Source of the DNA: Sediminispirochaeta smaragdinae DSM 11293
Lineage (GTDB): Bacteria > Spirochaetota > Spirochaetia > DSM-16054 > Sediminispirochaetaceae
Direction of reading: 5' to 3'
Length of the DNA: 64,000 bases
Assembly: GCF_000143985.1 (NCBI RefSeq)
Contig: NC_014364.1
Coordinates: forward strand, 124,001-188,000
In this document: positions 43,360 through 63,630 of the stretch, in pieces
Numbering within the stretch: the first letter of the stretch is position 1
Layout of the letters: the number at the start of each line of letters is the position of its first letter
Position numbers and translations under genes: made by a program
The notes under the pieces: generated by a model
Seen by the model: the letters and a program-made list of their open reading frames with translations, nothing else
What the model was told of the DNA's origin: nothing
Databases searched by the model: none

Positions 43360-45501
43360 TTATCCCAGGCCAAGGATGATACCGCCCCGATACACAATAA
43401 AAGCGGCAATCCAGGCGAGGGTAAGCTGATATCCAAGAGAAAAGATCGACCATTTCCACGAGCCGACCTCTTTCACAAGGGTGACGAAAGCTACGATACA
43501 GGGCGTATAAAGCATGACGAAAATCAAAAAGGCGAAGCCGACCAACGGTGAATAAGCGTCTCTGAGTGCATCCCTGAGCTCGGTTCCCGACTCCTCTTTT
43601 CCCTCTTCGTTTCCAGCGGTAAAAAGGACGCCGAGGGTTGAAACGACGACCTCTTTTGCTACAAAACCAGTCATGAGACTGACATCCATGCGCCAATCAA
43701 AGCCAAGGGGCGCAAGCACCGGCTCGATAAAGGTCCCTGCCTTTCCTATGTAACTCTGCATCACCTGCTTACGCTTAAGCTCTCGCTGTAGAGCCTGGAC
43801 CTCCTCCTGATGCCCCTGTTCCCGTTGCTCGGCGATCATCGTATCGTACTGCTTTTCCATTTCGGGCTGTTTCGGGTAATTTCCGAGGAACCAAATGATG
43901 ATGGAGAAGATCAGCACAACGCCTCCCATTTTCTGGAGATAGTGCTTTGCCTTTTCCCACATATGGATCAATGCACTGCGAAAGGTTGGAATTCGATAAG
44001 GGGGGAGTTCCATCACAAAGGGATACTCTTCGCCACGGAAGAGTGTCTTTCGAAAAAGCCATCCCATACCAAAGGCAAAAAGGAAACTCAAAAAGTAGAG
44101 TATAAAAATCACATTGCCGGCGATATTGGGAAAAAAGGCGCCGGTAAACAGGATGTAAACCGGAAGTCGGGCGCTGCAGGTAATCAGGGGGGCAATTAAA
44201 ATGGTTAGGATACGGTCTTTCTTGGACTCCAGAGTTCTAGCTGCCATGATGGCCGGTACACTACAGCCCACTCCCATGACCAGAGGAATGAAGCTTTTCC
44301 CATGAAGTCCGATCCTGTGCATGACCTTGTCCATGATAAAGGCGATTCTGGCCATGTATCCGGTGTCTTCAAGGATGGAGATTCCAAGAAAGAGGATGAG
44401 AATATTCGGAAGAAACACAAGAACGCCGCCGACCCCTGCAATAACTCCGTCGGTCAGCAGATCGCGAATCGCTCCCGGTGGCATGGTCGTACCGATCCAG
44501 TTGCCTAGTGCGGTTATCCCCGATTCGATCCAGGCCATGGGATAGGCTCCCAGCCCGAAGGTCGTCTGGAACAGTATCCACATAAAAAAGGCGAAGATAG
44601 GATATGCCAGAAAGCGGTTTGTGAGAACATCATCGATCTTTTCACTGATATTAATCCTATTTGCTTTCGGCTTGTTGACGGTTTCGTTCAGTGCTCCGAT
44701 GATGAAGCCGTAACGTCGTTCACTAATGATCGTTGCCGCATCTTCTCCGTAGAGCTGTTCGATTTCCTTGCTCCGACTTTCCAGCTCTTTGAAGATCACA
44801 TTATCATCGGGAGAATCTGCGGGAACACGTTCCCGCACCTTGCGGAGAATTTCATCGTCCCGTTCCAGTAGTTTCAATGCATACCAACGCGGGCTTATTC
44901 CCCGAAGATTAAAGGAACTTTTTTCCACAAGTTCGGCAAGGCTTTCGATAGCCGCCTCGATCTCCTTGCCGTAGTTAACGGAAACCTGGCGAGTCGCCGG
45001 GTGTTCTCCCTTTGCGACCCGGATTGCTTCGTCAAGGAGCTCACGGACCCCTTCTCCATTGCGGCCTACGGTAAAGCGAATGGGAATTCCGAAGAGCCTG
45101 CTGAGGGCTTCGGTATCGATAACCGTTCCCGATCGCTTTAACTCATCACTCATGTTAAAGGCCAACACCATGGGACGACCCATTTCCATAACCTGAACTC
45201 CGAGGTAGAGGTTTCGTTCCAGGTTGGTTGAATCGAGAACGTTGATGATGACATCTGCATCGCCCTTGATAATGACTTCTCTGGCGACCAGTTCCTCCAT
45301 GGTGTAGGCAGATAGGCTGTAGGTCCCCGGGATATCGATCAAGGTAACGCGATCGTTTCCCCGTCGTATATTCCCCTCTTTGACGTCGACGGTGACCCCT
45401 CCCCAGTTCCCAACCTTTTGATTAGCGCCTGTTGCGGCATTAAAGATTGAGGTTTTTCCCGAGTTGGGATTTCCGGTCAGAGCAAAACGGAATGAGCCCA
45501 T
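43360..45501 (-). CDS. feoB: Ferrous iron transporter B, copy 1
   Basis: Imports Fe(II) across the inner membrane. ATG at 45501 is used (GGGGAG six bases upstream, overlapping the feoA stop). The N-terminal G protein has GNPNSGKTS, GNWGGVTVD, DIPGTYSLSA and FNMSDELKR for the G1-G4 motifs. A helical spacer and the gate/pore region (GVGCSVPAIMAARTLESKKD; APLITCSARLPVYILF) follow. The pore motifs CxxP and the second Gate half are present. It is coupled to feoA. Confidence 0.94.
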   Translation of the reverse strand: MGSFRFALTGNPNSGKTSIFNAATGANQKVGNWGGVTVDVKEGNIRRGNDRVTLIDIPGTYSLSAYTMEELVAREVIIKGDADVIINVLDSTNLERNLYLGVQVMEMGRPMVLAFNMSDELKRSGTVIDTEALSRLFGIPIRFTVGRNGEGVRELLDEAIRVAKGEHPATRQVSVNYGKEIEAAIESLAELVEKSSFNLRGISPRWYALKLLERDDEILRKVRERVPADSPDDNVIFKELESRSKEIEQLYGEDAATIISERRYGFIIGALNETVNKPKANRINISEKIDDVLTNRFLAYPIFAFFMWILFQTTFGLGAYPMAWIESGITALGNWIGTTMPPGAIRDLLTDGVIAGVGGVLVFLPNILILFLGISILEDTGYMARIAFIMDKVMHRIGLHGKSFIPLVMGVGCSVPAIMAARTLESKKDRILTILIAPLITCSARLPVYILFTGAFFPNIAGNVIFILYFLSFLFAFGMGWLFRKTLFRGEEYPFVMELPPYRIPTFRSALIHMWEKAKHYLQKMGGVVLIFSIIIWFLGNYPKQPEMEKQYDTMIAEQREQGHQEEVQALQRELKRKQVMQSYIGKAGTFIEPVLAPLGFDWRMDVSLMTGFVAKEVVVSTLGVLFTAGNEEGKEESGTELRDALRDAYSPLVGFAFLIFVMLYTPCIVAFVTLVKEVGSWKWSIFSLGYQLTLAWIAAFIVYRGGIILGLG

Positions 45502-45779
45502 CAAAGGCTCCCCGCACATTCGCCTTCGGCTGCATGTATGTACTGATCCTTCGCCGGCTCAACTTCTATCATATCTGCTTCTTCGACTCGCAGCGAAACA
45601 TTGCACCCTGCAACCAAAATTTCAACCGGATCTTTTAGGGGGGCGTATCTGATAATTGATATCGTTTCACCTCGGCGAAAACCCAATTCCATGAGTCTAT
45701 TTTTGAGCCTTCCGCTTCCGTTTAATCTTGTTATGGTGACGATATCTCCCTGGCGATATTGACTGAGCGTTTTCTTCAT
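45501..45779 (-). CDS. feoA: Ferrous iron transport protein A, copy 1
   Basis: A 92-residue SH3-like domain protein that associates with FeoB in the cytoplasm. The pattern LNGSGRLKNRLMELGFRRGET followed by PVEILVAGCNVSLRVEEADMI is FeoA. It heads a four-gene metal operon (feoA, feoB, DUF1007, NicO). A promoter-like pair sits at 45791-45819, but no strong ribosome-binding site precedes the ATG. No TTAGG-N4-CCTAA site is seen here, unlike at the second Feo locus. Confidence 0.88.
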   Translation of the reverse strand: MKKTLSQYRQGDIVTITRLNGSGRLKNRLMELGFRRGETISIIRYAPLKDPVEILVAGCNVSLRVEEADMIEVEPAKDQYIHAAEGECAGSL

Positions 45780-48798: not shown

Positions 48799-49035
48799 AT
48801 GGGGCAGCTCAAGGAATTTCGAGCCGGTGATAACGGAACCGTTATTGGATTCGCTCCAGGTTCTGCACAATGGAAGAGTCGGCTTCTTGCGATGGGAATG
48901 ACCGTAGGAACGGCGTTTCAGGTGGAGCGTGTAGCACCACTGGGGGATCCCGTGGAAATAATGGTTCGGGGCAGCCGGATCACACTTAGGAAGGGCGAAG
49001 CAGAAGCGCTTCTTGTTGAAAGGAGAGTATCATGA
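48799..49035 (+). CDS. feoA: Ferrous iron transport protein A, copy 2
   Basis: A protein of about 78 residues from ATG 48799, preceded by GGGGGAAG. An in-frame ATG at 48781 has no ribosome-binding site. The SH3-like FeoA fold is seen in WKSRLLAMGMTVGTAFQVER and PVEIMVRGSRITLRKGEAEA. It overlaps feoB by 4 bases, so it is the dedicated partner of FeoB copy 2. The upstream FeoA-like gene makes a second, possibly modified FeoA in the same locus. Confidence 0.86.
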   Translation: MGQLKEFRAGDNGTVIGFAPGSAQWKSRLLAMGMTVGTAFQVERVAPLGDPVEIMVRGSRITLRKGEAEALLVERRVS

Positions 49036-51332
49036 AACGAGTAGAAGGTGGTGCCTCGGTGAGCAATTTCACCATAGCTCTTGCCGGAAACCCGAATTGC
49101 GGAAAGACAACGCTTTTTAATGCTCTAACCGGTGGAAATCAACGGATAGGAAACTGGCCGGGCGTTACGGTTGAAAAAAAAGAGGGCTGGCTTTCCGGAA
49201 GTAAACAGCGAAAGGTGGTAGACCTTCCCGGTATTTACAGCCTGAATGCCGGTAGTGAAGATGAGAGGGTTGCACGCGACTATCTACTTTCGGGGGAAGC
49301 TGATCTTGTTGTCAACATAGTCGATGCCTCCCACCTTGAGCGAAATCTTTACTTAACCACGACCATCATGGAAATGGGTGTTCCTGTGGTTCTGTTCCTC
49401 AACATGATGGACCTTCTCGAGAAAGAAGGGAGTACCATCAATATTAAGGAACTGGAATCCGCTTTAGGAGTTCCTGTTGTTGCTGGTACCGCTACAGATA
49501 AGAAAAGTGTTGCCGAAGCGGTTGCACGGATTACCGAGCTCGTTGGGAACGTTCGCCCTTCGGATCATAAACCTGTCTATCCCAATGAGATAGAAGAGCT
49601 TATTTCGAAGTGGGAGAAGCAAGCCGGTGGCCGCTGGAATGCGTTGGCCCTTTATGAGGGAACTGCGCCTTCTGAGCTGCACGGACGGATTCCTACAGAA
49701 AAAATCGCTGCTGAGCGTGAAAAGATTTCATCGCTTCTGAAGGAAGAATCGGAAGTAATCTTAGCCGACAGCAGGTATGGTTTTATTCGTGGAGTCATTC
49801 ATGATGTATTTCATGCACAGGAACGTCGAAGGAGTGTCTCCGAGCAAATTGATAAAGTCGTTTTGAATCGATTTCTTGGTATTCCGATTTTCCTTGTTGT
49901 AATGTACCTGATGTTTTGGCTTGCCATTTCCGTGGGCTCATCGTTTATCGATTTCTTCGATGTCTTATTTGGAACCATTTTTGTTGACGGATTTGGAGTG
50001 TTATTAGGTAGTATCGGCTCTCCGGATTGGGTCGTTAGTTTTCTGGCCGGAGGAGTTGGAGCCGGTATTCAAACGGTGGCAACCTTTGTTCCCGTGGTTT
50101 TCTTTATGTTCCTTGCTCTAAGCCTTCTTGAAGATTCAGGTTATATGGCCAGGGCCGCCTTTGTTATGGACCGCCTGATGCGGGCTCTCGGACTTCCCGG
50201 TAAGGCCTTTGTCCCGATGATCGTCGGTTTCGGATGTACGGTGCCTGCAATCCTGGCAACCAGGACCCTCGAAAACAAGCGGGACCGCTTTATGACGATC
50301 TTTATGGCGCCTTTTATGAGTTGTGGGGCGCGTCTGCCCGTGTATGCTCTCTTTGGTGCAGCTCTTTTTGGTGCTCATGCGGGAGCCATTGTGTTTTCGA
50401 TTTATATTATCGGTGTTCTTTTGGCCGTTCTTACGGGCCTCTTTTTAAAGCATTCGCTTTTCAGGGGCGAACCTGGCTACTTTATCATGGAACTTCCTCC
50501 TTATCATGCTCCCCGTTTTAAGCATGTTATGATTCATACATGGACACGCTTGAAGGTTTTTCTTGCGAGAGCTGGAAAAGTGATTGTCATTGCCGTATTC
50601 CTCCTGGGTGTTCTCAATAGTCTTGGTACCGATGGTAGTTTTGGAAACGAGGATACCGAGAATTCGGTTCTTGCCGTTACCGGCAAGGCTATTACGCCTA
50701 TATTCTCGCCGATGGGTATCAAAGAAGAAAGCTGGCCTGCAACCGTCGGACTTTTTACCGGTCTCTTTGCAAAGGAAGCGGTTGTTGGAACCCTCAATGG
50801 TCTTTACGGTCAGATAGCAGCGGCCGAAAACAATGTCGCTGGTGATGAAGGTGGGGAGGAAGAAGCCTTTAGCCTTGGTGCTGGTATTAAAGATTCTTTT
50901 GTTGCCTTGAAAGATGGAGTCCTTGGCATATCAGGTGGTATAGGCTCTATTGTCGGTGCTGATGTGATCAGTGGCGGGGATGAAGAAGCTGTTGCCGAAG
51001 CGGCGGAAGTTGATATTTCGATATTTTCTCTCATGCGGCGTGGTTTTACCCCTGTATCTGGATATGCTTATTTACTTTTTGTATTGATCTATTTCCCCTG
51101 TCTGGCAGCTTTTGGAGCGATCGTAAAAGAAATGGGGATTGGTTTAGGTATTCTTGAGGCTATTTATTTGACGGTTTCGGCTTGGGCTGTGGCTGTGTTC
51201 TACTATCAGATTGCTGAGGGCGGAAACTTCCTGTGGATGATTGTCTCGGCCGCAATCATGGTCGCCCAGTTCTTCGTGTTCAGGGCGATTGGCAACCGCA
51301 ATAGGAAGAAAGAAGCGCTCCAATCTGCTTAA
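49032..51332 (+). CDS. feoB: Ferrous iron transporter B, copy 2
   Basis: A 766-residue Fe(II) importer with an N-terminal G protein (GNPNCGKTTLFN; GNWPGVTVEKKEG; DLPGIYSLNAGSED; FLNMMDLLEK), spacer and pore domain (VGFGCTVPAILATRTLENKRD; APFMSCGARLPVYALF). An Asp/Glu/Gly-rich insert near residues 597-615 is a distinctive loop. It differs clearly from copy 1, so the two are not recent duplicates. Expression from the two TTAGG-type operators suggests iron-starvation control. A hairpin at 51356 follows. Confidence 0.94.
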   Translation: MKRVEGGASVSNFTIALAGNPNCGKTTLFNALTGGNQRIGNWPGVTVEKKEGWLSGSKQRKVVDLPGIYSLNAGSEDERVARDYLLSGEADLVVNIVDASHLERNLYLTTTIMEMGVPVVLFLNMMDLLEKEGSTINIKELESALGVPVVAGTATDKKSVAEAVARITELVGNVRPSDHKPVYPNEIEELISKWEKQAGGRWNALALYEGTAPSELHGRIPTEKIAAEREKISSLLKEESEVILADSRYGFIRGVIHDVFHAQERRRSVSEQIDKVVLNRFLGIPIFLVVMYLMFWLAISVGSSFIDFFDVLFGTIFVDGFGVLLGSIGSPDWVVSFLAGGVGAGIQTVATFVPVVFFMFLALSLLEDSGYMARAAFVMDRLMRALGLPGKAFVPMIVGFGCTVPAILATRTLENKRDRFMTIFMAPFMSCGARLPVYALFGAALFGAHAGAIVFSIYIIGVLLAVLTGLFLKHSLFRGEPGYFIMELPPYHAPRFKHVMIHTWTRLKVFLARAGKVIVIAVFLLGVLNSLGTDGSFGNEDTENSVLAVTGKAITPIFSPMGIKEESWPATVGLFTGLFAKEAVVGTLNGLYGQIAAAENNVAGDEGGEEEAFSLGAGIKDSFVALKDGVLGISGGIGSIVGADVISGGDEEAVAEAAEVDISIFSLMRRGFTPVSGYAYLLFVLIYFPCLAAFGAIVKEMGIGLGILEAIYLTVSAWAVAVFYYQIAEGGNFLWMIVSAAIMVAQFFVFRAIGNRNRKKEALQSA

Positions 51333-53183: not shown

Positions 53184-53221
53184 GGGGCCGTTCGGTAACA
53201 TGCTGAACGGCCCCGTTTTTT
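53184..53221 (+). terminator. Rho-independent terminator of flavodoxin
   Basis: Arms GGGGCCGTTC (53184-53193) and GAACGGCCCC (53205-53214) with an 11-base loop, directly followed by GTTTTTT. This is the clearest intrinsic terminator in the window. Confidence 0.9.
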
Positions 53222-53236
53222 GGTAGAATCGGCCAG

Positions 53237-54136
53237 CTATTCGTTTATGACTTCGGCGCTATGCAGATTATCAATGTACATATTCTGGATTATGCTGTTT
53301 TCTCCAAGTCCATGGAGATAGACATCGACCGTAAAGCCTTCTTTGGTAAGAATGCTCTTCCAGGAATCATCCTCGTCCCCAGCCATATCGTTTGTTGCAT
53401 GATCTCCTGCTACAACCATGAAGGGCATCAATGTCACCTTTGAGATATGATCACGATGCAGCAGATCGATAACATCGTCGAGTGCAGGATACCCTTCCAC
53501 GGTTCCCACATATACGGGTAAACCCTTTCGCGCGAGCATGTACTGGAATGCTGCGTAGGCGCAGTTTGCTGGATGCTCGGTCCCATGTCCCATCAGCACC
53601 ACGGCTTCTCCTGTTCCGAGGGAAGGCAACTGGGCTGAAACGGCATCGACTGCTTTCCAATAATTCTCCGTGGTGGAAAGGATCGGAGAGCCTATCGCTA
53701 TCTTTTCGAATTTTCCAGAATAGCGACGTGCGACGGCGAGAACCTCGCCCGTGTATTCCTCTCCGGGAATGATGTGCAGGGGCTGGATAAGCACTTCCGA
53801 AAAGCCTTCTTTATACATCTTCTCCAAAGCCTCTGCGGGCGCGTCGACATGAATACCATCCCGTTTATCCAGAATACCAATGATAATATGGCTGGTAAAA
53901 GCGCGCCGTACCTCATATTCGGGGAAGGCCTCGGCAATCTTTTGTTCACAGGCATCAATGGTCACTGCCCGTGTTTCGGGATAGCTCGTACCGAAACTTA
54001 TCACAAGAATTCCCTTTTTGCCGTTTGTGTTCATTGTCAGCTTTTCTCCTCCCGTGCTTGCACAAGCAGCAAGCATCAAACTCCCTGCGAGGGCAAGAGC
54101 CATGCAGGCTACTTTCCTCATGCTTTTGCTTTTCAT
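53237..54136 (-). CDS. CbiK-type tetrapyrrole metallochelatase with lipoprotein signal
   Basis: A 299-residue protein of the CbiK class II chelatase family, which inserts Co (or Fe) into sirohydrochlorin. The family marks are KKGILVISFGTSYPETRAVT, SHIIIGILDKRDGIHVDAP, EVLIQPLHIIPGEEYT with its metal-binding His, VVLMGHGTEHPANC and MPFMVVAGDHATND. The N-terminus is a lipoprotein signal (ALAGSLMLAACASTGG, lipobox Cys24), so it acts outside the cytoplasm, unlike ordinary CbiK. Desulfovibrio has a periplasmic CbiK thought to handle heme. It follows a TonB receptor by 27 bases. Confidence 0.88.
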   Translation of the reverse strand: MKSKSMRKVACMALALAGSLMLAACASTGGEKLTMNTNGKKGILVISFGTSYPETRAVTIDACEQKIAEAFPEYEVRRAFTSHIIIGILDKRDGIHVDAPAEALEKMYKEGFSEVLIQPLHIIPGEEYTGEVLAVARRYSGKFEKIAIGSPILSTTENYWKAVDAVSAQLPSLGTGEAVVLMGHGTEHPANCAYAAFQYMLARKGLPVYVGTVEGYPALDDVIDLLHRDHISKVTLMPFMVVAGDHATNDMAGDEDDSWKSILTKEGFTVDVYLHGLGENSIIQNMYIDNLHSAEVINE

Positions 54137-54163
54137 CCTTTACTCCTTTCCATTGTATTTTCT

Positions 54164-56143
54164 TTAGAAGCTGCCGCGGATGCCGAGATAGAGAACCGGC
54201 CCTGCAAGAAGGTCCGAGAAGTCGTCTTGTACACCCGTAATATTGTCGACGCCTCCGAATAGTTCAAAATTATCTTTAAGGCTTTTTTCGAGATACACAT
54301 CAAAGGTAACGAGGGTATGCTCGCTTCTTTCGTGAGGGCCTGTCACCGAAGTCGAGAACTTGGCCTTCAAGGCAAGAGGCTTCAGGAGGTAGTGCACAGA
54401 TGCCCCTCCTGTATGGCTTGGTACAAGGTCGAGCTCTTCACCTGCGCTTCTATCGTAGGCAAAAAGATACCCATAACGTGCGGTCATGGAGAGGTCGCTT
54501 AGCACGTTCCAGTTCAAGGAAAGGTCGAAACCGCTTCTCGATGAACGATCGAGGTTTTCCTTGATGATGACCTGCCGTCCGTCGTCGTCGGCCCGGTCCG
54601 TGTAGTCATAGACGATTTCGTCGCTCAATTCGCTATGATATCCGGCGAATTGCAGCGTTACGTTTTCCCTGGTCCAATCCACACCGAGATTGAAGGAAAC
54701 GGATCTTTCCGGATCCAGGTCGGGATTGCCGTATTTGTGATAGATATTGCCTGCGGAATCGAGATAGAGCTCGAGAAATGAGGGCGCACGGTAACCAAGC
54801 CCGACAGAGGGTAGGATTCTTATCCCGGGCCTAGGCACATACATGCCGGAGAGTTTTGGTGCGAAGAAGATGCCGTAATCGTTGCTGTACTCGCTCCGCA
54901 AGCCTGCGAGCAGGGAATAGCTGTCCTTCTTGTACTGTTCATCCTGCAATACCAGAGAAAAGGTATGGCGCTGGTGAACCGCATAGTCTCCGATATTGTA
55001 CTTTTTGAGTCTGTCGTAACCGTAGGAACCGATCATCGTCAGCTCGTTCTGGTCTCCAAGCGGCTGAGTGTACTGGAGATCCCCGCTTAGATAGTGCTGA
55101 TATTCGCTGCCGGAGTCGTTCCACTCGTCCAGAATGCTGCTGTATTGGGATTTATCCCGCTGGAAGTAGTTATGGTAGAGGTTTGCTTTGAGAAAGCCTT
55201 TCTTCTCTGTGGTAACATCATAGGCGATGTAGGAATTAAGCCTCTGGGTATCGATTCGGTCGAAGGCCCCTCCCGAGGAGATATTCTCCTTCTGGCGATG
55301 AAAGGAGTAGGCACTACCAAAGGCCAGGGTCCCTCCGGATGAAAGAACGATATCGGAATCAAGTCCTGCGTCTGCCCTGGTGGCGCCCGGATAGAGGGAC
55401 TGGTCTTCATCGTCCAGATAGGGAAAGGCGTGTTCCGCCGACAGGGTAAGGCGGTTGGCGAAGGCCCCGATAGGAAGGTTTAGGTGGGCCAGGCCGCTTT
55501 GTTTGTTTGCCAATGATGTGTAAGCGGGATCGGAACTCTCCGAGATCGGTAGCAGGGCTCGGGTCGTGACCTGATAATCTCCCGATAGTTCGTAGTCCGG
55601 TTCCTTGGTGATGATGTTGATCACTCCGCCGATTGCCTCGGAACCGTACAGGGCCGACTGCGGACCTCGTATGATCTCAATCCGTTCAACATTATCCATG
55701 GCAATGGTATTCGCCACGATATTGGATGCCACCCTGCCGCTTACCCTTCGGCCGTCGATGAGAAAAAGAATCCTTTCCCCGTCCATACCCTGCATCTGGA
55801 CATGGCTTCCCATTCCCGTTTCGGCAAACTGAAGGCCCGTTTCTCCCAGAACTCCTTCAAGAGTATCGGAACCGGAAGCCTCAATCTGATCCTCCGTGAT
55901 CACCTCGGTCTGAATCGGCGAATCCTTCTGTTCTTTTTCGGTCCGCGTTCCCGCCACCACGATATTCAGCACAGGCAGTGCATCTGCTTCCTCTGTTTGC
56001 TCTTCTATTGTTTCTGCTTGTGCTTCGGCTGCTTCATCTTCTGGCTTTCCCTCCTGTTGCTGAGCGGAAAGGGCCGGGGGCCATGCAAAGGCCCCGGCAA
56101 TGAGCAATACGACCGGTAAAAGCTGTCTTGTCATGGCCATCAC
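54164..56143 (-). CDS. TonB-dependent outer-membrane receptor (BtuB-like)
   Basis: A 659-residue outer-membrane receptor. Signal peptide (about 27 residues, ends ALSA-QQ), a Glu/Ala-rich linker (EGKPEDEAAEAQAETIEEQT), TonB-box-like PVLNIVVAGTRTE, the plug domain (GVLGETGLQFAETGMGSHVQ; IEIIRGPQSALYGSEAIGGV) and a barrel of about 22 strands ending GIRGSF. The B12 riboswitch upstream of the operon points to a corrinoid or related tetrapyrrole, not iron-siderophore. It overlaps the HmuY-like gene by 4 bases. Confidence 0.9.
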   Translation of the reverse strand: MMAMTRQLLPVVLLIAGAFAWPPALSAQQQEGKPEDEAAEAQAETIEEQTEEADALPVLNIVVAGTRTEKEQKDSPIQTEVITEDQIEASGSDTLEGVLGETGLQFAETGMGSHVQMQGMDGERILFLIDGRRVSGRVASNIVANTIAMDNVERIEIIRGPQSALYGSEAIGGVINIITKEPDYELSGDYQVTTRALLPISESSDPAYTSLANKQSGLAHLNLPIGAFANRLTLSAEHAFPYLDDEDQSLYPGATRADAGLDSDIVLSSGGTLAFGSAYSFHRQKENISSGGAFDRIDTQRLNSYIAYDVTTEKKGFLKANLYHNYFQRDKSQYSSILDEWNDSGSEYQHYLSGDLQYTQPLGDQNELTMIGSYGYDRLKKYNIGDYAVHQRHTFSLVLQDEQYKKDSYSLLAGLRSEYSNDYGIFFAPKLSGMYVPRPGIRILPSVGLGYRAPSFLELYLDSAGNIYHKYGNPDLDPERSVSFNLGVDWTRENVTLQFAGYHSELSDEIVYDYTDRADDDGRQVIIKENLDRSSRSGFDLSLNWNVLSDLSMTARYGYLFAYDRSAGEELDLVPSHTGGASVHYLLKPLALKAKFSTSVTGPHERSEHTLVTFDVYLEKSLKDNFELFGGVDNITGVQDDFSDLLAGPVLYLGIRGSF

Positions 56144-56976
56144 TGAATTTTGGCGGTCTTGACCTTGTAGATGTATGTTCTGTTTGTACTATCCGACAAA
56201 TATTCGGCATCCAGAATCTGCAACTTGTAGTAGGAACTCCCATCCCCACCGCGGACAATATAAACATTATTCGTAAAGTTGGAGAAGTTTGGACTCATCC
56301 GTTCCCACTCGGCATAGGCCCTGCCAAGACCGAAATTTACATCGACATGCGCTCCTACCTCTCCGAAAGCCCATGCGGTGGAGGGCGCTTGCCCGTCACG
56401 TTGCGGATCCTGCGGATAGCTGCTGTTATAGGCATAACCTGGGTAGGAGATGGCATTCCCCGTGGTTGGTTCAGAGGGATCTGAACTGTCTACTTTGTAT
56501 TTACCATAGTAGGAATAATCTTTTCCGTCGTTTGAGTAGTCATTTGAATCATCGGCAAAGAGGGCTTGTGCCTCGGTGATGCTTATCGACTGGTCGAAGT
56601 TGCTTGTCTGGGCATAGACTACACCACCCTGGCCGCTGGAACTTAACGATGTTGCGGTTACCCCGCTGTTGGTCAGGATTTCCTTCTGGGCCGTGATCAT
56701 AATCTCCCAGTTGGTGTTTGACCCTTCTGTAATAGTTGAAAGATCATCCCCTCCGGTAGCTTCCACCGGGTTTTCAGGATCTTCAAGGTCGATAAAAAGA
56801 TAGGTATAGATCCATGTGTCAGAGGGCTTGTTCCGTTTCCCCTCATAGGTAATGGTGTCGCCGTCGGAGTCGGAACTTCCGGAACTATTAAGGTCGCAGC
56901 CAGCAAAGAACAGAAGGATTACCAAAAATGGCGTGATAGCCTTCCCTACGTTTTTCGTGTACACATGTTTTCGCAT
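56140..56976 (-). CDS. HmuY-like lipoprotein
   Basis: A protein of about 278 residues from ATG 56976 (GAGGAGGAGACT upstream). Signal peptide with lipobox LFFAGC, then a Ser/Asp-rich linker. The mature part has HmuY-like patterns: NTNWEIMITAQKEILTNSG, QGGVVYAQTSNFDQSISITE and a C-terminal VRGGDGSSYYKLQILDA. HmuY in Porphyromonas is a surface hemophore. Control by a cobalamin riboswitch and co-transcription with a BtuB-like receptor suggest that this one binds a corrinoid or porphyrin. Ligand unproven. Confidence 0.72.
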   Translation of the reverse strand: MRKHVYTKNVGKAITPFLVILLFFAGCDLNSSGSSDSDGDTITYEGKRNKPSDTWIYTYLFIDLEDPENPVEATGGDDLSTITEGSNTNWEIMITAQKEILTNSGVTATSLSSSGQGGVVYAQTSNFDQSISITEAQALFADDSNDYSNDGKDYSYYGKYKVDSSDPSEPTTGNAISYPGYAYNSSYPQDPQRDGQAPSTAWAFGEVGAHVDVNFGLGRAYAEWERMSPNFSNFTNNVYIVRGGDGSSYYKLQILDAEYLSDSTNRTYIYKVKTAKIQ

Positions 56977-57149
56977 AGTCTCCTCCTCGTTTAATTGAAT
57001 CACGGGGACAGAAAGACTACCTGGAAAAATCATAGATAGAGACCGGGCCGACAGTGAACCGGAATGGTAGGATTTTTCTGCGTCACACTCTTCCCCGAGA
57101 TGCGCTTTGCATGGTGGTGGGCACCTTTCGTTTCAGAAAGGTCCTTTTT

Positions 57150-57306
57150 CAAGGCCGGATATCCTGACTCCCGGATTGGCCCTCGTTTCCGCCTTCCCGG
57201 CGTCCTGCGCCAGTGGCTTTGTAGAAACTTGGTACCCGGTTACAGTAGCGGGGTCTGTTCCGGATTTTCACCGGATTCCCCGAACCCAACACCATCTAAA
57301 TATGTA
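57150..57306 (-). promoter_or_regulatory. Cobalamin riboswitch before the HmuY-like/TonB/CbiK operon
   Basis: On the minus strand the strings GGGAATCCGGTGAAAATCCG, GGAACAGACCCCGCTACTGT (B12 box), AGCCACTGG, CGGGAAGGCGGAAACGAGGG and GGGAGTCAGGATATCC appear in the canonical order of the AdoCbl-type riboswitch, with full peripheral elements. The operon ATG is about 175 bases downstream of its end. No other gene is seen in the 57034-57580 gap except the repeat copy 3. Confidence 0.93.
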
Positions 57307-57377
57307 CGACAAAAGCATGACGGAAAAAATTCGATTGGTATAGTACTTTTTATTGCGAATTGGTATTTATTTCTTAG

Positions 57378-57580: not shown

Positions 57581-58609
57581 TTAGTAGTTTTCTTCTTTGC
57601 CGGTACTTTGGGAGACTCCCGCATCGTTGAAGGATGCCATTTCCGAAGCGATTTTGATTCCGAGATTGACCAGAAAGCCGCCGATAACCGCTCCCGTCCC
57701 TTCTCCCAGTCGCATATCCAGCTCCACAATCGCTTCGAGGCCCATGGCCTGGAGCATTACCGCGTGTCCTTTCACCTTTGATTTGTGGCCGGCGAATAGA
57801 TAAGCCGAGACTTCATTGTCCATGAGCCAGGCCATATAGGCCCCGGCTGTTACCGGAAATCCGTCGATCATGCAGGCGCAGCCCTTCCCTTTAAGACCGA
57901 GGATAAAGCCTGCCATGGTAGCCAGCTCGAAGCCACCGACCTTGCGCATGATATCCTTTGCATCGGAAAAAGGGGCATGGCGTTCGATAGATTCGAGGAT
58001 GACACGTCGTTTGTGATCGAGCATTTCGCTGCTGATGCCCGTTCCCTTGTCGATGATCGATTCGGCAGGTAGCCCCCCGGCAATTGCCATGGCCGCGGCG
58101 GTCGTCGTGTTGCTGATCCCCATATCACCGAGGGCGAGGATTTTGTAGCCCTCGGTAACCGCGTTTTCCGCTAGTTGTTTTCCATTCGCAAGGCAGATCT
58201 CAAGCTGGTCGGCGGTCATTGCTTCTATCTCGTGAAAGTTCCGGGTTCCGTATCCTGCCTTGCAGCCGATCACCTGGGAAAGATCGACGTCCGAGGCTAT
58301 CCCTGCATCGACGATGAAAACATCGAATCCGCAGTGACGCGCAAGTACGTTGATCCCTGCACCGTTTTGGGTAAAATTGGCAACCATCTGCTTGGTGACC
58401 TCCTTGGGATACATGGAGACCCCTGCTTCATTGATGCCGTGGTCTGCGGCAATGACAAAGGCGCCCATTTTTCCCGATTCTGGAACGACCTTTCCCTGAA
58501 TCTCCGCCATTTTGACGGCAAAGTCCTCCAGTTTCCCCAGGCTTCCCACCGGTTTGGTCAGTCCGTCAAGGTGCTTCCGGGCTGCTGTTCTGATCTGTTC
58601 GTTGTTCAT
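57581..58609 (-). CDS. cobT: Nicotinate-nucleotide--dimethylbenzimidazole phosphoribosyltransferase
   Basis: Makes the alpha-ribazole phosphate lower ligand of cobalamin from nicotinate mononucleotide and dimethylbenzimidazole (or another base). The 342-residue protein has LTKPVGSLGKLEDFAVKMAE, FVIAADHGINEAGVSMYPKE, the active-site GDMGISNTTTAAAMAIAGG and the late LDMRLGEGTGAVIGGFLV with the catalytic Glu. Its ATG overlaps the cobD-like stop by 4 bases. It is the last gene of the operon. Confidence 0.95.
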   Translation of the reverse strand: MNNEQIRTAARKHLDGLTKPVGSLGKLEDFAVKMAEIQGKVVPESGKMGAFVIAADHGINEAGVSMYPKEVTKQMVANFTQNGAGINVLARHCGFDVFIVDAGIASDVDLSQVIGCKAGYGTRNFHEIEAMTADQLEICLANGKQLAENAVTEGYKILALGDMGISNTTTAAAMAIAGGLPAESIIDKGTGISSEMLDHKRRVILESIERHAPFSDAKDIMRKVGGFELATMAGFILGLKGKGCACMIDGFPVTAGAYMAWLMDNEVSAYLFAGHKSKVKGHAVMLQAMGLEAIVELDMRLGEGTGAVIGGFLVNLGIKIASEMASFNDAGVSQSTGKEENY

Positions 58610-59748
58610 GTCTTCTCCCGTTTCTCTGTTGTTTCATCCTGTCCGGTCGGACCGCTTTCGGCGGCAAGGAAACCGAGCAGTTGTCTATTGTTTTCTTCGC
58701 TTGAAATTCCTATCCGGTAGAACCCTGGCAGGTCAAAGGATGTACAGTCGCGCAGGGCGATGTCCGAGGCGGCAAGATGTTCACGGAACCGCCGTGCACG
58801 CGCTTTTGCTCCGGAGTACAGGAGGAAAAAGTTGGCCGTTCCAGGGAATATGCCGTAACCTAATGCTGCGGCTGCTGTCTCAAGGCTCTGCCGCTGTAGT
58901 CGGAGCCGTCGCCACTGTGTTTCAAAGACTTCCCGATGCTGTATGGCGGCAAGGCCTGCGGCAAGAGCCGGGGCGTTGATGCTCCACTCGGGGCGGGCGG
59001 CGCTAAGGGCCCTTGCAATCCGGTGAGGCGCGATACTATAGCCCAGTCTGAGTCCGGGAAGGGCAAAATCCTTTGTCATGGAACGCAGTACCACGATGTT
59101 TTCGGCCTCCGCGCAGTAGCGTCTGTTTTCATCGACAAAGTTCATGTACGCCTCGTCCACGACCAGGAGACCGCCGCAGCTGGAACAGGAGTCTGCTATC
59201 TCCTCGATGTCCCGTCTGTCGAGAAGGAGCCCTGTGGGGTTGTTGGGATTGCAGATCCATGTCAGCGCGGGCTTCAACTCACCAATGGTCCTGATAAGGG
59301 AAGGGATGGATAGCGTGAATCCTTCCTGCGGCTTCGCCCGGAAACTATCAATCCGTGCCCCCATGAGGGCACTGTTTTTTGCATACTCTTCGTAGGTTGG
59401 ACCGACAACCAGCACGTTTCTTCCCCGTTCCAGGAGGCCAAAAGCGGTGAGAAAGATGGCCTGGCTCACCCCGTTGGTAAGCAGCAGGCGTTCGGGATCA
59501 CAGCCGTGTAACCTTGCAAGCTCCCCGGCAAGTTGCCGGCCTCTTGTGTCGGGGTAGCGGTTCATCGGCGCGGCCGCAATGGCCGTGACAACCGGGTCTG
59601 GAAGGGGAAAGGGGTTGAGGCAGACCGAGAAATCAAAGGGCTTTGCCTCTCTTCCTCCGTGAGGTACCGTTTGAGATGTAAGAAGCTCGGGGCGTATCAG
59701 CGCCGCTTGTTCCGGTTTCCCGGCTTGGTGTTTTGCATCAGGAACCAA
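58606..59748 (-). CDS. cobD: L-threonine-O-3-phosphate decarboxylase, CobD-like (class I/II aminotransferase fold)
   Basis: A 380-residue PLP enzyme of the HisC-like fold. The pieces NRYPDTRGRQLAGELARLHG, LTNGVSQAIFLTAFGLLERG, WICNPNNPTGLLLDRRDIEE and RSMTKDFALPGLRLGYSIAP (PLP Lys) match CobD/CobC. CobD makes (R)-1-amino-2-propanol phosphate for the CbiB step. Position between cobT and cbiB supports this. It overlaps cbiB by 11 bases. HisC itself is excluded mainly by context. Confidence 0.9.
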   Translation of the reverse strand: MVPDAKHQAGKPEQAALIRPELLTSQTVPHGGREAKPFDFSVCLNPFPLPDPVVTAIAAAPMNRYPDTRGRQLAGELARLHGCDPERLLLTNGVSQAIFLTAFGLLERGRNVLVVGPTYEEYAKNSALMGARIDSFRAKPQEGFTLSIPSLIRTIGELKPALTWICNPNNPTGLLLDRRDIEEIADSCSSCGGLLVVDEAYMNFVDENRRYCAEAENIVVLRSMTKDFALPGLRLGYSIAPHRIARALSAARPEWSINAPALAAGLAAIQHREVFETQWRRLRLQRQSLETAAAALGYGIFPGTANFFLLYSGAKARARRFREHLAASDIALRDCTSFDLPGFYRIGISSEENNRQLLGFLAAESGPTGQDETTEKREKT

Positions 59749-60700
59749 GGATCACCCCCGTACAGGCAAGGATACCGGCCAAAAGTAGAAGAAAAAGAAG
59801 GGCCGATCTTCGAACCAGCCTAATGCAACGGCGAATGTCGGCGGGTTTCGGAAGGCGACCTGTACTGTTTATGACGTAGTGCCCTCTTTTTTCCAGGCGT
59901 AAGCCTAAAATAGCGGCTGCGGCGCCCATGGTCCAGCCTGCGTTGGGGCTTTCGGTAGCATTCTGCCATGCAAAGAGGGACGCCAGGGATCTTTTCCTCC
60001 CGGCACCATTACCCTCCCCAGGGGCTGATCGTATCGGTATGATGCTTCCGGCCAAAATGATGAGCAAGGCCGTCACTCTGGCCGGGATAAAATTCAGAAG
60101 ATCATCACAACGAGCCGCCCATTTACCTCCGAACTCGAAGTCTCCCGTGCGGTAGCCTATCATGGCATCGCTGGTATTGATATAGCGGAAGGCAAAGGCA
60201 CCGGGAAGGCCCGCAAGAAGATAGTACAAAAGGGGTGAGGTAAAGCTGTCGGTAAGGTTCTCCGCAAGGGATTCGACCACCGCACCGCAGAGCTCCGACT
60301 CCTCCAGTTCGCTCGTGTTCCGACTGACAAGGTGAAAGGCTGTCAGCTTTCTCGCCGATGCAAGGTCCCCGGCTTCCAGCGCCCGTGCGATCTTGTCCCC
60401 CGTTCGCAGGAGGGTGGTGAGAGAAAAGCTCATTTTCAAAAAAACGATCGACAGAACCAACCTCGGCAGGATCGGAATCCTGTTTAGAAGAAGCAGGGGA
60501 AGGGAAAAGAGCAGGGCTCCACAGATGGTCATAAGGGCGCCGTAGGAAAAAAGAAGCCACTTCCCCTGTTTGGGCCGATGCTGCCAGAGGCGGGAAATGA
60601 GGCTTCCCATCCAGGCTACCGGATGAAAACGGTTGGGAGGATCGCCCCAAAGCAGGTCGTAAAGCAGGGCTCCCGCAAGAATCGGCAGGCAAAGGTTCAT
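59738..60700 (-). CDS. cbiB: Adenosylcobinamide-phosphate synthase
   Basis: Joins adenosylcobyric acid and aminopropanol (or its phosphate) in the inner membrane. This 320-residue, multi-span protein has the typical LLYDLLWGDPPNRFHPVAWM, then VVESLAENLTDSFTSPLLYY, AFRYINTSDAMIGYRTGDFE and a C-terminal membrane helix. It overlaps cbiP by 4 bases. It works directly after CbiP and with the neighbouring CobD product. Confidence 0.95.
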   Translation of the reverse strand: MNLCLPILAGALLYDLLWGDPPNRFHPVAWMGSLISRLWQHRPKQGKWLLFSYGALMTICGALLFSLPLLLLNRIPILPRLVLSIVFLKMSFSLTTLLRTGDKIARALEAGDLASARKLTAFHLVSRNTSELEESELCGAVVESLAENLTDSFTSPLLYYLLAGLPGAFAFRYINTSDAMIGYRTGDFEFGGKWAARCDDLLNFIPARVTALLIILAGSIIPIRSAPGEGNGAGRKRSLASLFAWQNATESPNAGWTMGAAAAILGLRLEKRGHYVINSTGRLPKPADIRRCIRLVRRSALLFLLLLAGILACTGVILGS

Positions 60701-62184
60701 AGTCCGATGATTGCCTCCAGCTGCTTCATATCAATGGCCGCTTCCACCGCATCGGCCAGGGCCTCCAGTTCTTCTTCCCTCCTCTGGACAAGGCTTACAG
60801 GCTTGCCTTCAGGCTCCCAGCCCAGAGATGCGAGCCAGCCCCGTCTGAAAGCGGCCTCGTCGAAGAGACCGTGAAAGTAGGTTCCGATGATGCGGCCGTC
60901 CGGTGATACTGCACCGTCGCGCCCTCCTGAGCCGGTTGCAAGAAAAGGACCGGCCGACTCTCCCAGCGCGCTATGACCCATGTGGATTTCATAACCGCTG
61001 ACCTTGTACCCTTTCATCGGAGCAAGGGTTCCCTTATCACTGCAGAGGGTCCCTGTCTCCTGGATCGTCTTCTTTTCCCGACTGAAGTAGGTGGTTACAT
61101 CCAGCAGCCCAAGGCCCCGGAGGCTTCCGGCGCTGCCCTCCACCCCCTCTTTGTCGATGATCTGCCTTCCCAGCATCTGAAAGCCCCCGCAGATACCAAT
61201 GACCGATGTTCCCTCTTCGACTTTGCGGCAAATAGCCTCGGCAAGGCCGCTCTGCCTGAGCCAGAGCAGATCTGCCATGGTGGTTTTGGTTCCCGGCAGG
61301 ATGATTGCCGCAGGGTTACCCAGCTCTCTTGGATGTTCCACAAAACGAAGCTGTAGGCCCGGCTCCATGGTCAGGGCGTCGAAATCATCGTAATTGGAGA
61401 TGTGGGGCAGAAGCATGACCGCTATCTCGGTACTTCCGGAGCCGAAAAAGCGGTGCTCTTCGAGAAACACCGAATCTTCCTGGGCGAGGGAGATCTCCTT
61501 CAGGTAGGGAACTACGCCCAGGGTCGGGACGCCTCCTGTCAGGTTCCGAAGCATATCGAGCCCCGGTTTGAGCAGTTCGACATCGCCCCGGAATTTATTG
61601 ATGATAAAACCTTTGACCAGTTCCCGTTCCTCCGGCTCGAGAAGGGCAAGGGTGCCGTAAAGGAATGCGAAAACGCCGCCCCTGTCGATGTCGGCGGCCA
61701 GAAGAACCGGGGCCTGTAGATATCTTGCCACCCGCATGTTGACGATTTCGTGTTCCTTCAGATTGATCTCGGCGGGGCTGCCCGCTCCTTCGACGATAAG
61801 CAGGTCGTTCTCTTTCCCCGCCCTATCCAGAACCTCGGTGATGGTTTCCCACAACGCAGGCTTCGCCTTGTAATACTCACCTCCGCTTAGGCGTCGCCAC
61901 GGCTTTCCCATCAGCACCACTTGGGAGCTGCTGTTACCCTCCGGCTTGAGCAGTACCGGGTTCATGGCTACCTCGGCATCCCGTTTTGCCGCGGTAGCCT
62001 GGAGGGCCTGGGCTCTGCCGATCTCCAGGCCTTCGCTGGTTACGAAAGAGTTGAGGGCCATGTTCTGGCTTTTAAAGGGAAAGACCCGAAGCCCCTTTCG
62101 CGCAAAGATTCGGCAAAAGGCGGCGACAAGGAGGCTTTTACCGACATTCGAGGATGTTCCCTGGATCATTAAGGTTCGTGACAT
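60697..62184 (-). CDS. cbiP: Adenosylcobyric acid synthase
   Basis: Amidates adenosylcobyrinic acid a,c-diamide at four positions using glutamine and ATP. The 495-residue protein has an N-terminal dethiobiotin-synthetase-like ATPase (IQGTSSNVGKSLLVAAFCRI; YKAKPALWETITEVLDRAGK; LIVEGAGSPAEINL) and a C-terminal class-I-like glutaminase (VIGICGGFQMLGRQIIDKEG with the Cys, and TYFHGLFDEAAFR with His). It heads the cbiP-cbiB-cobD-cobT operon. cobU and cobS are not in the window. No cobalamin riboswitch is seen on its own side. Confidence 0.95.
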   Translation of the reverse strand: MSRTLMIQGTSSNVGKSLLVAAFCRIFARKGLRVFPFKSQNMALNSFVTSEGLEIGRAQALQATAAKRDAEVAMNPVLLKPEGNSSSQVVLMGKPWRRLSGGEYYKAKPALWETITEVLDRAGKENDLLIVEGAGSPAEINLKEHEIVNMRVARYLQAPVLLAADIDRGGVFAFLYGTLALLEPEERELVKGFIINKFRGDVELLKPGLDMLRNLTGGVPTLGVVPYLKEISLAQEDSVFLEEHRFFGSGSTEIAVMLLPHISNYDDFDALTMEPGLQLRFVEHPRELGNPAAIILPGTKTTMADLLWLRQSGLAEAICRKVEEGTSVIGICGGFQMLGRQIIDKEGVEGSAGSLRGLGLLDVTTYFSREKKTIQETGTLCSDKGTLAPMKGYKVSGYEIHMGHSALGESAGPFLATGSGGRDGAVSPDGRIIGTYFHGLFDEAAFRRGWLASLGWEPEGKPVSLVQRREEELEALADAVEAAIDMKQLEAIIGL

Positions 62185-62319: not shown

Positions 62320-62515
62320 TATAATGAAGCCAACCATTCCAGGTGGCCAGAATCGGCAGAATAGGGAAGCAGGTGTGAGTCCTGCACTCGGCAAGAGAGC
62401 TGTAAACGGGGATGAACCTACCATCCGCCACAGGCGGAACGTCACTGCATCTGAAGGTGTGGGAAGGCGGTAGAAGTAAGATGATCCGTGAGTCAGAAGA
62501 CCTGCCTGGGAAAAC
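62320..62515 (+). promoter_or_regulatory. Cobalamin riboswitch before the BtuF/BtuC-type importer
   Basis: In order: CCATTCCAGGTGGCCAGAAT, GGGAAGCAGGTGTGAGTCCT, CGGCAAGAGAGCTGTAAACG (B12-box region), GTCACTGCATCTGAAGGTGT, GGGAAGGCGGTAGAAGTAAG and GAGTCAGAAGACCTGCC. This is a canonical full-size cobalamin riboswitch. Its end is about 85 bases before the importer start. The remaining bases of the 62185-62598 gap include the divergent promoter area of the cbiP operon, in which I see no clear element. Confidence 0.93.
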
Positions 62516-62598
62516 GGAGAGCATCCATGCTTTTGCACTTTTGCAGCTCTCCGGATCTTCCTGTCTCTGGTCCTCCTGTGTCTATCAGAGGAGGAACA

Positions 62599-63630
62599 AT
62601 GGTTTTCGTTCGAAGGGCTCTCGCCGTTTTTCTTTTGTTTGTGTGCATGACATCTCTGCTTTTTGCCGGAGGGACGCAGGAGCCGGCATCCGACCGAAAG
62701 GTGGCCGGTAGTCCGCAGTCGGGGATGTCGATCTTGGGCGAGAGCGATGCGTCGGTACGCTTTCGGGAGGTTTCGGGCCGGATTGTCGAAATTCCCAAAT
62801 TCCCCAAACGAACCGTCATCATGCACAATTCGATACTCGACCTCTGGTATATGGCCGGAGGAACAAGCCTTGCCCGCCTGAGGGGAGCAATCAATGTGCC
62901 CGCCGAGGCAAAAGATCTTCCCGTGCTTGGTTCCATTGCCAGTATCGATGTCGAAAAAATCATGAAACTGGAACCGGACTTGCTTATCTTTTCGGGAACA
63001 AGTGAATACCAGCGAAAAATCAGTGATTTTTTTGCCTCTGAAGGGGTGGCGAGCCTTGGGATCAATTATGAAAACTATGATGATTTTGGTCTCATCTTCG
63101 ATCTCTTTACCAGGCTCAACGGCCGACGGGATCTCTACGAAGCGTATTTGATTCCGACGCAGGAAAAGGTTCAGTCCATTATCGATCGGGTACCGAAGGG
63201 CGTGCATCCAAAGGTGTGTATCCTCTTTGCTTCCACCAACTACGTGAAGGTGGAAACCGAGGAGACCGTGACCGGAGACTACTGCAAGCGTCTTGGAGCG
63301 GTGAATATCTATCGTGAATCGGCCTTCGAAGGAGCCGGTCGAGTCGACCTCAGTCTTGAATACATCCTCGAACAGGATCCTGATCTCATATTCGTCACCA
63401 CCATGGGTGATGTGGAAAAGTGTACGGCCAGGATAGAAATGGAGGTTTCATCCAATCCTGTATGGGCTTCCCTTTCGGCTGTGAAAAACGGACGGTTTCA
63501 TTATCTGGATAAGTCCTTTTCCATCTACAAGCCGAACCGCGCCTATCCCGAGGCATTTCAGAGGATTGCCGAACTCCTGTATCCTGGAACGGATTTCAGT
63601 CTCGGTTCCGGGGAGGGGAAGGCTGAGTGA
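62599..63630 (+). CDS. Periplasmic cobalamin/corrinoid-binding protein of an ABC importer (BtuF-like)
   Basis: A protein of about 343 residues from ATG 62599 (AGAGGAGGAACA upstream; the longer frame back to 62488 overlaps the riboswitch and is not used). A signal peptide ending LLFAGGTQEPASD is cut there. The mature part is a helical-backbone class III binding protein (DLWYMAGGTSLARLRGAINV; IMKLEPDLLIFSGTSEYQRK; LEQDPDLIFVTTMGDVEKC). The riboswitch and adjacent FecCD-type permease point to a corrinoid; heme or siderophore remain possible. Overlaps the permease by 4 bases. Confidence 0.85.
   Translation: MVFVRRALAVFLLFVCMTSLLFAGGTQEPASDRKVAGSPQSGMSILGESDASVRFREVSGRIVEIPKFPKRTVIMHNSILDLWYMAGGTSLARLRGAINVPAEAKDLPVLGSIASIDVEKIMKLEPDLLIFSGTSEYQRKISDFFASEGVASLGINYENYDDFGLIFDLFTRLNGRRDLYEAYLIPTQEKVQSIIDRVPKGVHPKVCILFASTNYVKVETEETVTGDYCKRLGAVNIYRESAFEGAGRVDLSLEYILEQDPDLIFVTTMGDVEKCTARIEMEVSSNPVWASLSAVKNGRFHYLDKSFSIYKPNRAYPEAFQRIAELLYPGTDFSLGSGEGKAE

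Follow-up and report, generated by a model that had tools for sequence, protein, structure and literature searches.

A cobalamin-riboswitch operon of Sediminispirochaeta smaragdinae encoding a HmuY-like lipoprotein, a TonB-dependent receptor and an exported CbiK: a candidate system for salvage of a tetrapyrrole precursor of B12

Here we describe an operon of Sediminispirochaeta smaragdinae DSM 11293 in which a cobalamin (B12) riboswitch is followed by genes encoding a putative divergent HmuY-like surface lipoprotein, a TonB-dependent outer-membrane receptor, and a CbiK-type class II chelatase that carries a lipoprotein signal. The operon lies in a stretch of 64,000 nucleotides (positions 124,001 to 188,000 of contig NC_014364.1), hereafter referred to as the window. 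With confidence only a little above even, we read it as a B12-repressed salvage system for a tetrapyrrole at the level of sirohydrochlorin, into which cobalt would be inserted outside the cytoplasm before import. This reading draws on features visible in the sequence, namely the riboswitch, the gene order, the export signals, and the catalytic histidines of CbiK, together with a genome that contains the corrin-ring genes and is devoid of HemB, CobA, SirC/Met8, and CbiX.

Operon organization and gene products

The first-pass annotation, made from the window alone, had placed a canonical cobalamin riboswitch ahead of an overlapping operon of three exported proteins, and both claims held. The riboswitch matches the covariance model RF00174 over its full length (gathering score 31.5 bits), and is followed on the same strand by the closely packed genes for the lipoprotein, the receptor, and CbiK, in that order (Table 1). 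The longest open reading frame (ORF) of the lipoprotein spans 57033-56140, with the likely start at 56976, preceded by GAGGAGGAG. The receptor starts either with GTG at 56143 or with ATG at 56140, the latter sharing TGATG with the lipoprotein stop codon, and the CbiK gene begins 27 nucleotides past the receptor stop. A strong terminator-like hairpin (14 pairs, 9 GC) is found at window positions 53184-53214 (+), between a flavodoxin gene and the end of the CbiK gene.

Table 1. Features of the operon and its surroundings, in window coordinates.
Feature	Position	Strand	Evidence and remarks
Cobalamin riboswitch RF00174, heads operon	57137..57334	-	cmscan 102.5 bits, E 1.6e-24, model positions 1-189
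Putative divergent HmuY-like surface lipoprotein	56140..56976	-	278 residues from likely start; lipobox LLFFAGC
TonB-dependent outer-membrane receptor	54164..56143	-	PF07715 E 7.8e-21, PF00593 E 9.8e-33
Exported CbiK-type class II chelatase, lipoprotein signal	53237..54136	-	PF06180 E 2.4e-93
Late B12 genes cbiP, cbiB, cobD-type aminotransferase, cobT	57581..62184	-	Directly upstream of operon, same strand
Second cobalamin riboswitch, before importer/corrin-ring operon	62324..62523	+	cmscan 92.1 bits, E 1.5e-21
Substrate-binding protein	62599..63630	+	Best NCBIfam model heme binder IsdE, 84 bits, below cut-off

The assignment of a CbiK-type chelatase with a lipoprotein signal was likewise borne out. 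The protein covers positions 1-260 of the 262 in PF06180 and has the lipobox LMLAAC, and its His184 and His246, in the C-terminal half, align with the metal ligands His145 and His207 of Salmonella CbiK, so that both histidines are kept. Structures have been solved for its relatives in Salmonella (CbiK), Desulfovibrio (CbiK), and Porphyromonas gingivalis (the lipoprotein FetB; PDB 9b86, E 1e-52). Its score against the NCBIfam equivalog model for sirohydrochlorin cobaltochelatase (NF047852) is 312 bits, below the cut-off of 400. The receptor contains both the Plug and the TonB barrel domain. The "BtuB-like" part of its first-pass description is not established, because the nearest NCBIfam models are split between hemin and B12 receptors, and both score far below their cut-offs (hemin receptor model, 135.5 vs 316.85 bits; BtuB model TIGR01779, 126.5 vs 599.7 bits).

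The lipoprotein had been called HmuY-like, and here direct and remote methods diverge. The HmuY family model PF14064 did not match at E values up to 10, the protein is not recognized by any model of Pfam or NCBIfam, and a PDB sequence search with the lipoprotein alone returned chance matches only; membership through PF14064 was consequently dropped, and remote methods were used instead. A profile built from two sequences (window and congener) and searched over 393 spirochaete genomes weakly picked up proteins that match PF14064 at approximately 1e-16 to 1e-18 and whose genes adjoin those of TonB receptors, directly upstream; such pairs occur in distant members of the phylum (loci L143, L144, and L147). 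Comparison of the lipoprotein with these PF14064-positive proteins of the same phylum using hhalign gave a probability of 95.4% (E 1.7e-8), and the alignment shows a common W-D/E pair followed by TNSG, G-rich stretches, and VYIVR-x-GDGS-x-YYK-x-Q. The A3 profile matched PDB 8b61 at E 0.0025. The AlphaFold model of the lipoprotein is of low confidence (predicted local distance difference test score, pLDDT, 45), and its alignment contains three PF14064 proteins; it was used nonetheless because HmuY matches stand far above all others. In a fold comparison, six of the top seven matches were HmuY-family proteins (Z 8.9-10.9) and the seventh a DUF4466 protein (Z 8.1), with Z values of 2.9 or less from rank 8 onward. 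We therefore take the lipoprotein as a divergent HmuY on the strength of remote similarity in profile and predicted fold. The heme site of HmuY is formed by two histidines, an arrangement that the lipoprotein is unlikely to share, since its mature part keeps no histidine across the genus.

A corrin pathway without an internal ring source

The S. smaragdinae genome is complete, in a single contig of 4,653,970 bases. It encodes CbiA, CbiC, CbiD, CbiE, CbiF, a CbiG-H fusion, and CbiL (above cut-off), whose gene lies near the importer and corrin-ring operon described below. Searches of the genome recovered no HemB, no SirC/Met8, no CbiX, and no CobA; the CobA search reached only the CbiF gene, at 139 bits where the cut-off is 185. 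PF06180 has a single member in the genome, the exported CbiK, which is also its sole CbiK/CbiX-type chelatase. With HemB, CobA, SirC/Met8, and CbiX absent, the pathway starts at the CbiK and CbiL steps without an internal source of the ring, and the combination of corrin-ring genes with the absence of HemB and CobA is the gene pattern of a precorrin-2 salvager.

Late B12 genes lie directly upstream of the operon (Table 1); CobT scores above the cut-off of TIGR03160, TIGR01140 is the best NCBIfam model for the CobD-type protein, and the names cbiP and cbiB were assigned by reading the sequence, without a hidden Markov model. Importer genes, led by a substrate-binding protein, begin behind the second riboswitch, on the opposite strand and approximately 5 kb upstream of the first one; for the binding protein the label BtuF was dropped, IsdE being the best model. 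Past the end of the window, the ORF order (locus L035) continues with BtuC/BtuD-type importer genes, cbiA, cbiC, cbiD, cbiE, cbiF, and the cbiG-cbiH fusion. A third cobalamin riboswitch of the genome (L131 10252-10376; genome 2942251-2942375) precedes an apparent corrinoid-protein/methyltransferase operon. Two FeoB-like ferrous iron transporter genes lie near each other elsewhere in the window, at 43360-45519 (-) and 49032-51332 (+).

In the salvage mechanism that we propose, low B12 would allow the riboswitch to permit operon expression, whereupon an extracellular ring would be captured by the HmuY-like lipoprotein and passed through the outer membrane by the TonB-dependent receptor. Cobalt (Co2+) would next be inserted extracytoplasmically by the lipoprotein CbiK, and the product would enter the cell through the IsdE/BtuCD-type importer of the neighbouring operon, leaving CbiL and the remaining corrin enzymes to complete cobalamin. 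We infer which ring is carried, which way the metal is transferred, which side of the membrane CbiK faces, and that the system is coupled to the importer. Loss of HemB and CobA together with retention of the corrin-ring genes points to a ring at the sirohydrochlorin level and not to a finished corrinoid: 5-aminolevulinate or uroporphyrinogen would be insufficient because CobA is missing, and cobinamide alone would leave the gene set, with its retained CbiL, unexplained. Siroheme is a possible cargo as well, with CbiK first removing the iron.

Distribution among spirochaetes

A sample of 31 spirochaete genomes containing CbiK was surveyed for the same pattern. HemB and CobA were both present in 7 and both absent in 24, of which 23 kept CbiD, and true SirC/Met8 was found in 5/7 genomes with HemB and CobA vs 0/24 genomes without both. 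PF13241 matches of 20-30 bits were not counted as SirC/Met8, true ones scoring 99-117 bits; CbiX matches in the other spirochaetes were mostly CbiK itself, plus pieces of approximately 140 residues in genomes G318 and G149; and a HemB match of 46 residues inside a 1739-residue frame of G149 was set aside. Loss of the upper pathway could also mean that the corrin-ring genes are decaying remnants and the operon a leftover or in the service of an unrelated metal or tetrapyrrole. We regard this as very improbable, given that 23 genomes from several genera share the headless state while keeping CbiD and CbiK intact, and that the two genomes of the genus are 82% identical in the lipoprotein and 97% identical in CbiK. 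In a treponeme without CbiD, CobA, and HemB (L062 9528-12499), an exported CbiK that lacks the GDHxxND motif, and is perhaps a binding-only form, is encoded directly before a TonB receptor.

Conservation of the three-gene order had been offered as a check on the first-pass proposal. Among the 393 genomes searched with the lipoprotein profile, the exact order was seen only in the two genomes of the genus, although its parts recur widely, as HmuY genes adjoining receptor genes and as riboswitches with exported CbiK.

Gene neighbourhoods of exported and cytoplasmic CbiK

Neighbours within 6 kb were compared at 119 CbiK loci from spirochaetes and other phyla, divided into 56 exported and 63 cytoplasmic by a simple signal test, which places L036 and L165 in the cytoplasmic class although both N-termini are hydrophobic. 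A periplasmic-binding protein adjoined 46/56 exported vs 4/63 cytoplasmic CbiK genes, BtuC 41/56 vs 3/63, and a NEAT-related protein 30/56 vs 0/63, whereas CbiL was a neighbour of 5/56 exported vs 37/63 cytoplasmic ones. In seven loci (L182, L059, L190, L188, L174, L196, and L054), the exported CbiK carries a fused NEAT-related domain, and L190 holds in a single run a riboswitch, a NEAT-related protein, a binding protein, BtuC, BtuD, a CbiK-NEAT fusion, and CbiD. A B12 riboswitch on the same strand lies upstream of 18/24 spirochaete and 22/26 non-spirochaete exported CbiKs. It is also found at cytoplasmic CbiK loci (5/8 checked, several far upstream in long operons), and the riboswitch alone therefore does not mark exported CbiK.

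Several loci have unusual architectures. Exported proteins with two CbiK domains in tandem occur in L167 (8998-10734), L206 (8962-10662), L218 (366-2210), and L182 (4139-6277), the last with a NEAT-related tail. Cytoplasmic CbiK is fused behind an ABC-type ATPase in L189 (8149-9807), L211 (8149-9804), and L222 (8098-9771), fusions that possibly link cobalt import to insertion. A metagenome-assembled genome of the Bacillota (L161 845-9915) combines tandem B12 riboswitches, an importer gene, a TonB receptor, ExbB/ExbD/TonB-like genes, and an exported CbiK. The record of L174 is named Alistipes, but its CbiK-NEAT module is in the style of the Bacillota, and a mixed bin is possible.

Three further explanations of the operon were weighed. 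CbiK could act in the cytoplasm for de novo synthesis in spite of its signal, through inefficient export or double location, its placement with the receptor being a chance assembly. The genome indeed has corrin-ring genes and no other chelatase of the CbiK/CbiX type, but the lipobox is strong, export is kept in many phyla with a distinct gene neighbourhood, and no CobA or HemB is present to provide a cytoplasmic substrate, which leaves this account with very little probability. Heme or iron acquisition, as described for Iht/FetB, would have the HmuY-like protein take heme and the exported CbiK remove iron or swap the metal at the surface. The HmuY fold, the slight preference of the receptor for the hemin-type model, the IsdE-like binding protein, the IhtB/FetB literature, and the inability of a genome without HemB to make heme are all in keeping with it; on the other hand, iron or heme regulation would be expected instead of the B12 riboswitch control seen here and in most exported-CbiK loci, and the want of a genus-conserved histidine speaks against a bis-histidine site. 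We consider this explanation improbable.

Uptake of complete or incomplete corrinoids (cobamides, cobinamide) by the lipoprotein and receptor, with the CbiK homologue only binding the ring or handling metal as an accessory, like Bacteroides BtuG/BtuH/BtuJ, has more in its favour and is still unlikely. It agrees with B12 control of the operon, with the late salvage genes directly upstream, with the lipoprotein and TonB receptor pairs proven for B12 in Bacteroides, and with the occurrence, in an exported-CbiK locus downstream of BtuFCD-type genes, of a protein that has an Ig-like domain and belongs to DUF4465, a family proven to bind B12 (L037 14161-15309). It leaves unexplained the intact catalytic histidines of CbiK, the lack of another CbiK/CbiX-type chelatase, and the retained genes from CbiL to CbiA, and the HmuY, NEAT-related, and IsdE-like partners point to flat rings of the porphyrin type.

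Several observations weigh against salvage of a sirohydrochlorin-level ring. The main weakness is that CbiK export does not track precursor auxotrophy within the Spirochaetota: exported CbiK is also encoded by 6-7/7 spirochaetes with HemB and CobA (G131/L036 being ambiguous), and CbiK is cytoplasmic in 7/23 precursor auxotrophs. In 5/7 genomes with HemB and CobA, SirC/Met8 could insert cobalt inside the cell, and salvage may be an extra route there. The exact order of riboswitch, lipoprotein, receptor, and CbiK occurs in only two genomes of one genus. Because the loci are related to one another, the neighbour counts overstate the associations: once loci were merged at 60% identity, the link to the binding protein persisted (p 0.0007), whereas that to the NEAT-related protein fell short of significance (p 0.11). 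The CbiK tree offered too few supported independent pairs for an informative test. Just one NEAT-related protein passes the PF05031 cut-off, the others falling below it. Absence of the upper pathway refers to HemB, CobA, SirC/Met8, and CbiX, while HemA, HemL, HemC, HemD, CbiT, and CbiJ were not searched for. Finally, the P. gingivalis chelatase IhtB is treated as a heme or iron protein (PMC10913741, PMC13227078).

The first-pass annotation had suggested an outer-membrane capture system for corrinoids or cobalt-tetrapyrroles, possibly with metal insertion outside the cytoplasm. That broad idea fits better than heme or plain B12 uptake; it did not include the iht precedent, the HemB/CobA loss that points to a specific cargo, or the confinement of the exact order to one genus. 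Extending sirohydrochlorin-level salvage beyond this operon, we tentatively propose, with slightly less than even confidence, that in many anaerobes that have lost the upper tetrapyrrole pathway exported CbiK performs cobalt insertion, the step that commits anaerobic synthesis to B12, outside the cytoplasm on a sirohydrochlorin-type ring taken from other microbes. The ring would be caught by HmuY-receptor pairs in diderms or by NEAT-related proteins in monoderms and treponemes, the cobalt form would enter through IsdE/BtuCD-type import, and P. gingivalis Iht would be one such system. If true, this offers a concrete, testable answer to the question of where headless corrin pathways obtain their precursor, among them that of P. 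gingivalis, which has been puzzling since 2000. Early B12 intermediates would then be expected to be cross-fed in anaerobic communities, and some of the systems classed as heme uptake may carry B12 precursors.

Comparison with known systems

Precorrin-2 salvagers, which like S. smaragdinae have corrin-ring genes without the upper pathway, were introduced by Shelton et al. (PMC6461909) as a predicted metabolic class comprising, as quoted in PMC8123684, 0.6% of genomes; in the literature searched we found no proposal for their uptake or metal-insertion machinery. The Bacteroides BtuG/BtuH/BtuJ-BtuB systems share with the operon a surface lipoprotein and a TonB receptor behind cobalamin riboswitches, but have no chelatase, and the binding lipoproteins described there are not HmuY-like. 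The Bacteroidota HmuY-HmuR systems also pair a HmuY-fold lipoprotein with an adjoining TonB receptor; S. smaragdinae differs in its B12 riboswitch, in having CbiK in place of the CobN-like HmuS, and in a lipoprotein without a direct PF14064 match or a conserved histidine. Desulfovibrio CbiK-P is a class II chelatase outside the cytoplasm, in the periplasm, in line with the predicted export of S. smaragdinae CbiK, and Desulfovibrio, unlike S. smaragdinae, has a second, cytoplasmic CbiK. CbiK-P (PDB 2xvx) is likewise encoded with a B12 element and importer genes (cbiK-cbiL-btuCDF), but no HmuY-like protein is found there.

The closest likeness is to the iht locus of P. gingivalis, where a coenzyme-B12 riboswitch lies upstream of IhtA, a receptor homologous to BtuB, and an outer-membrane chelatase is the product of the second gene, ihtB (PMC3764172). 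Riboswitch, TonB receptor, and outer-membrane CbiK lipoprotein (IhtB/FetB) follow in the same order as in S. smaragdinae, and both hosts lack the steps to precorrin-2 and have corrin genes. That a CbiK-type lipoprotein can act as a chelatase outside the cytoplasm is supported by a review that reports FetB-dependent manganese protoporphyrin at the P. gingivalis cell surface (PMC13402209). The two loci differ in that the S. smaragdinae operon is led by the HmuY-like lipoprotein, that iht is described as a heme/iron uptake system, and that the importer genes ihtCDE lie within iht, whereas the S. smaragdinae importer belongs to a neighbouring operon with its own riboswitch and corrin-ring genes. 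Judged by gene order and content, the S. smaragdinae operon is an Iht-type locus with an added HmuY-like protein, a known type of locus for which we offer a new and testable reading.

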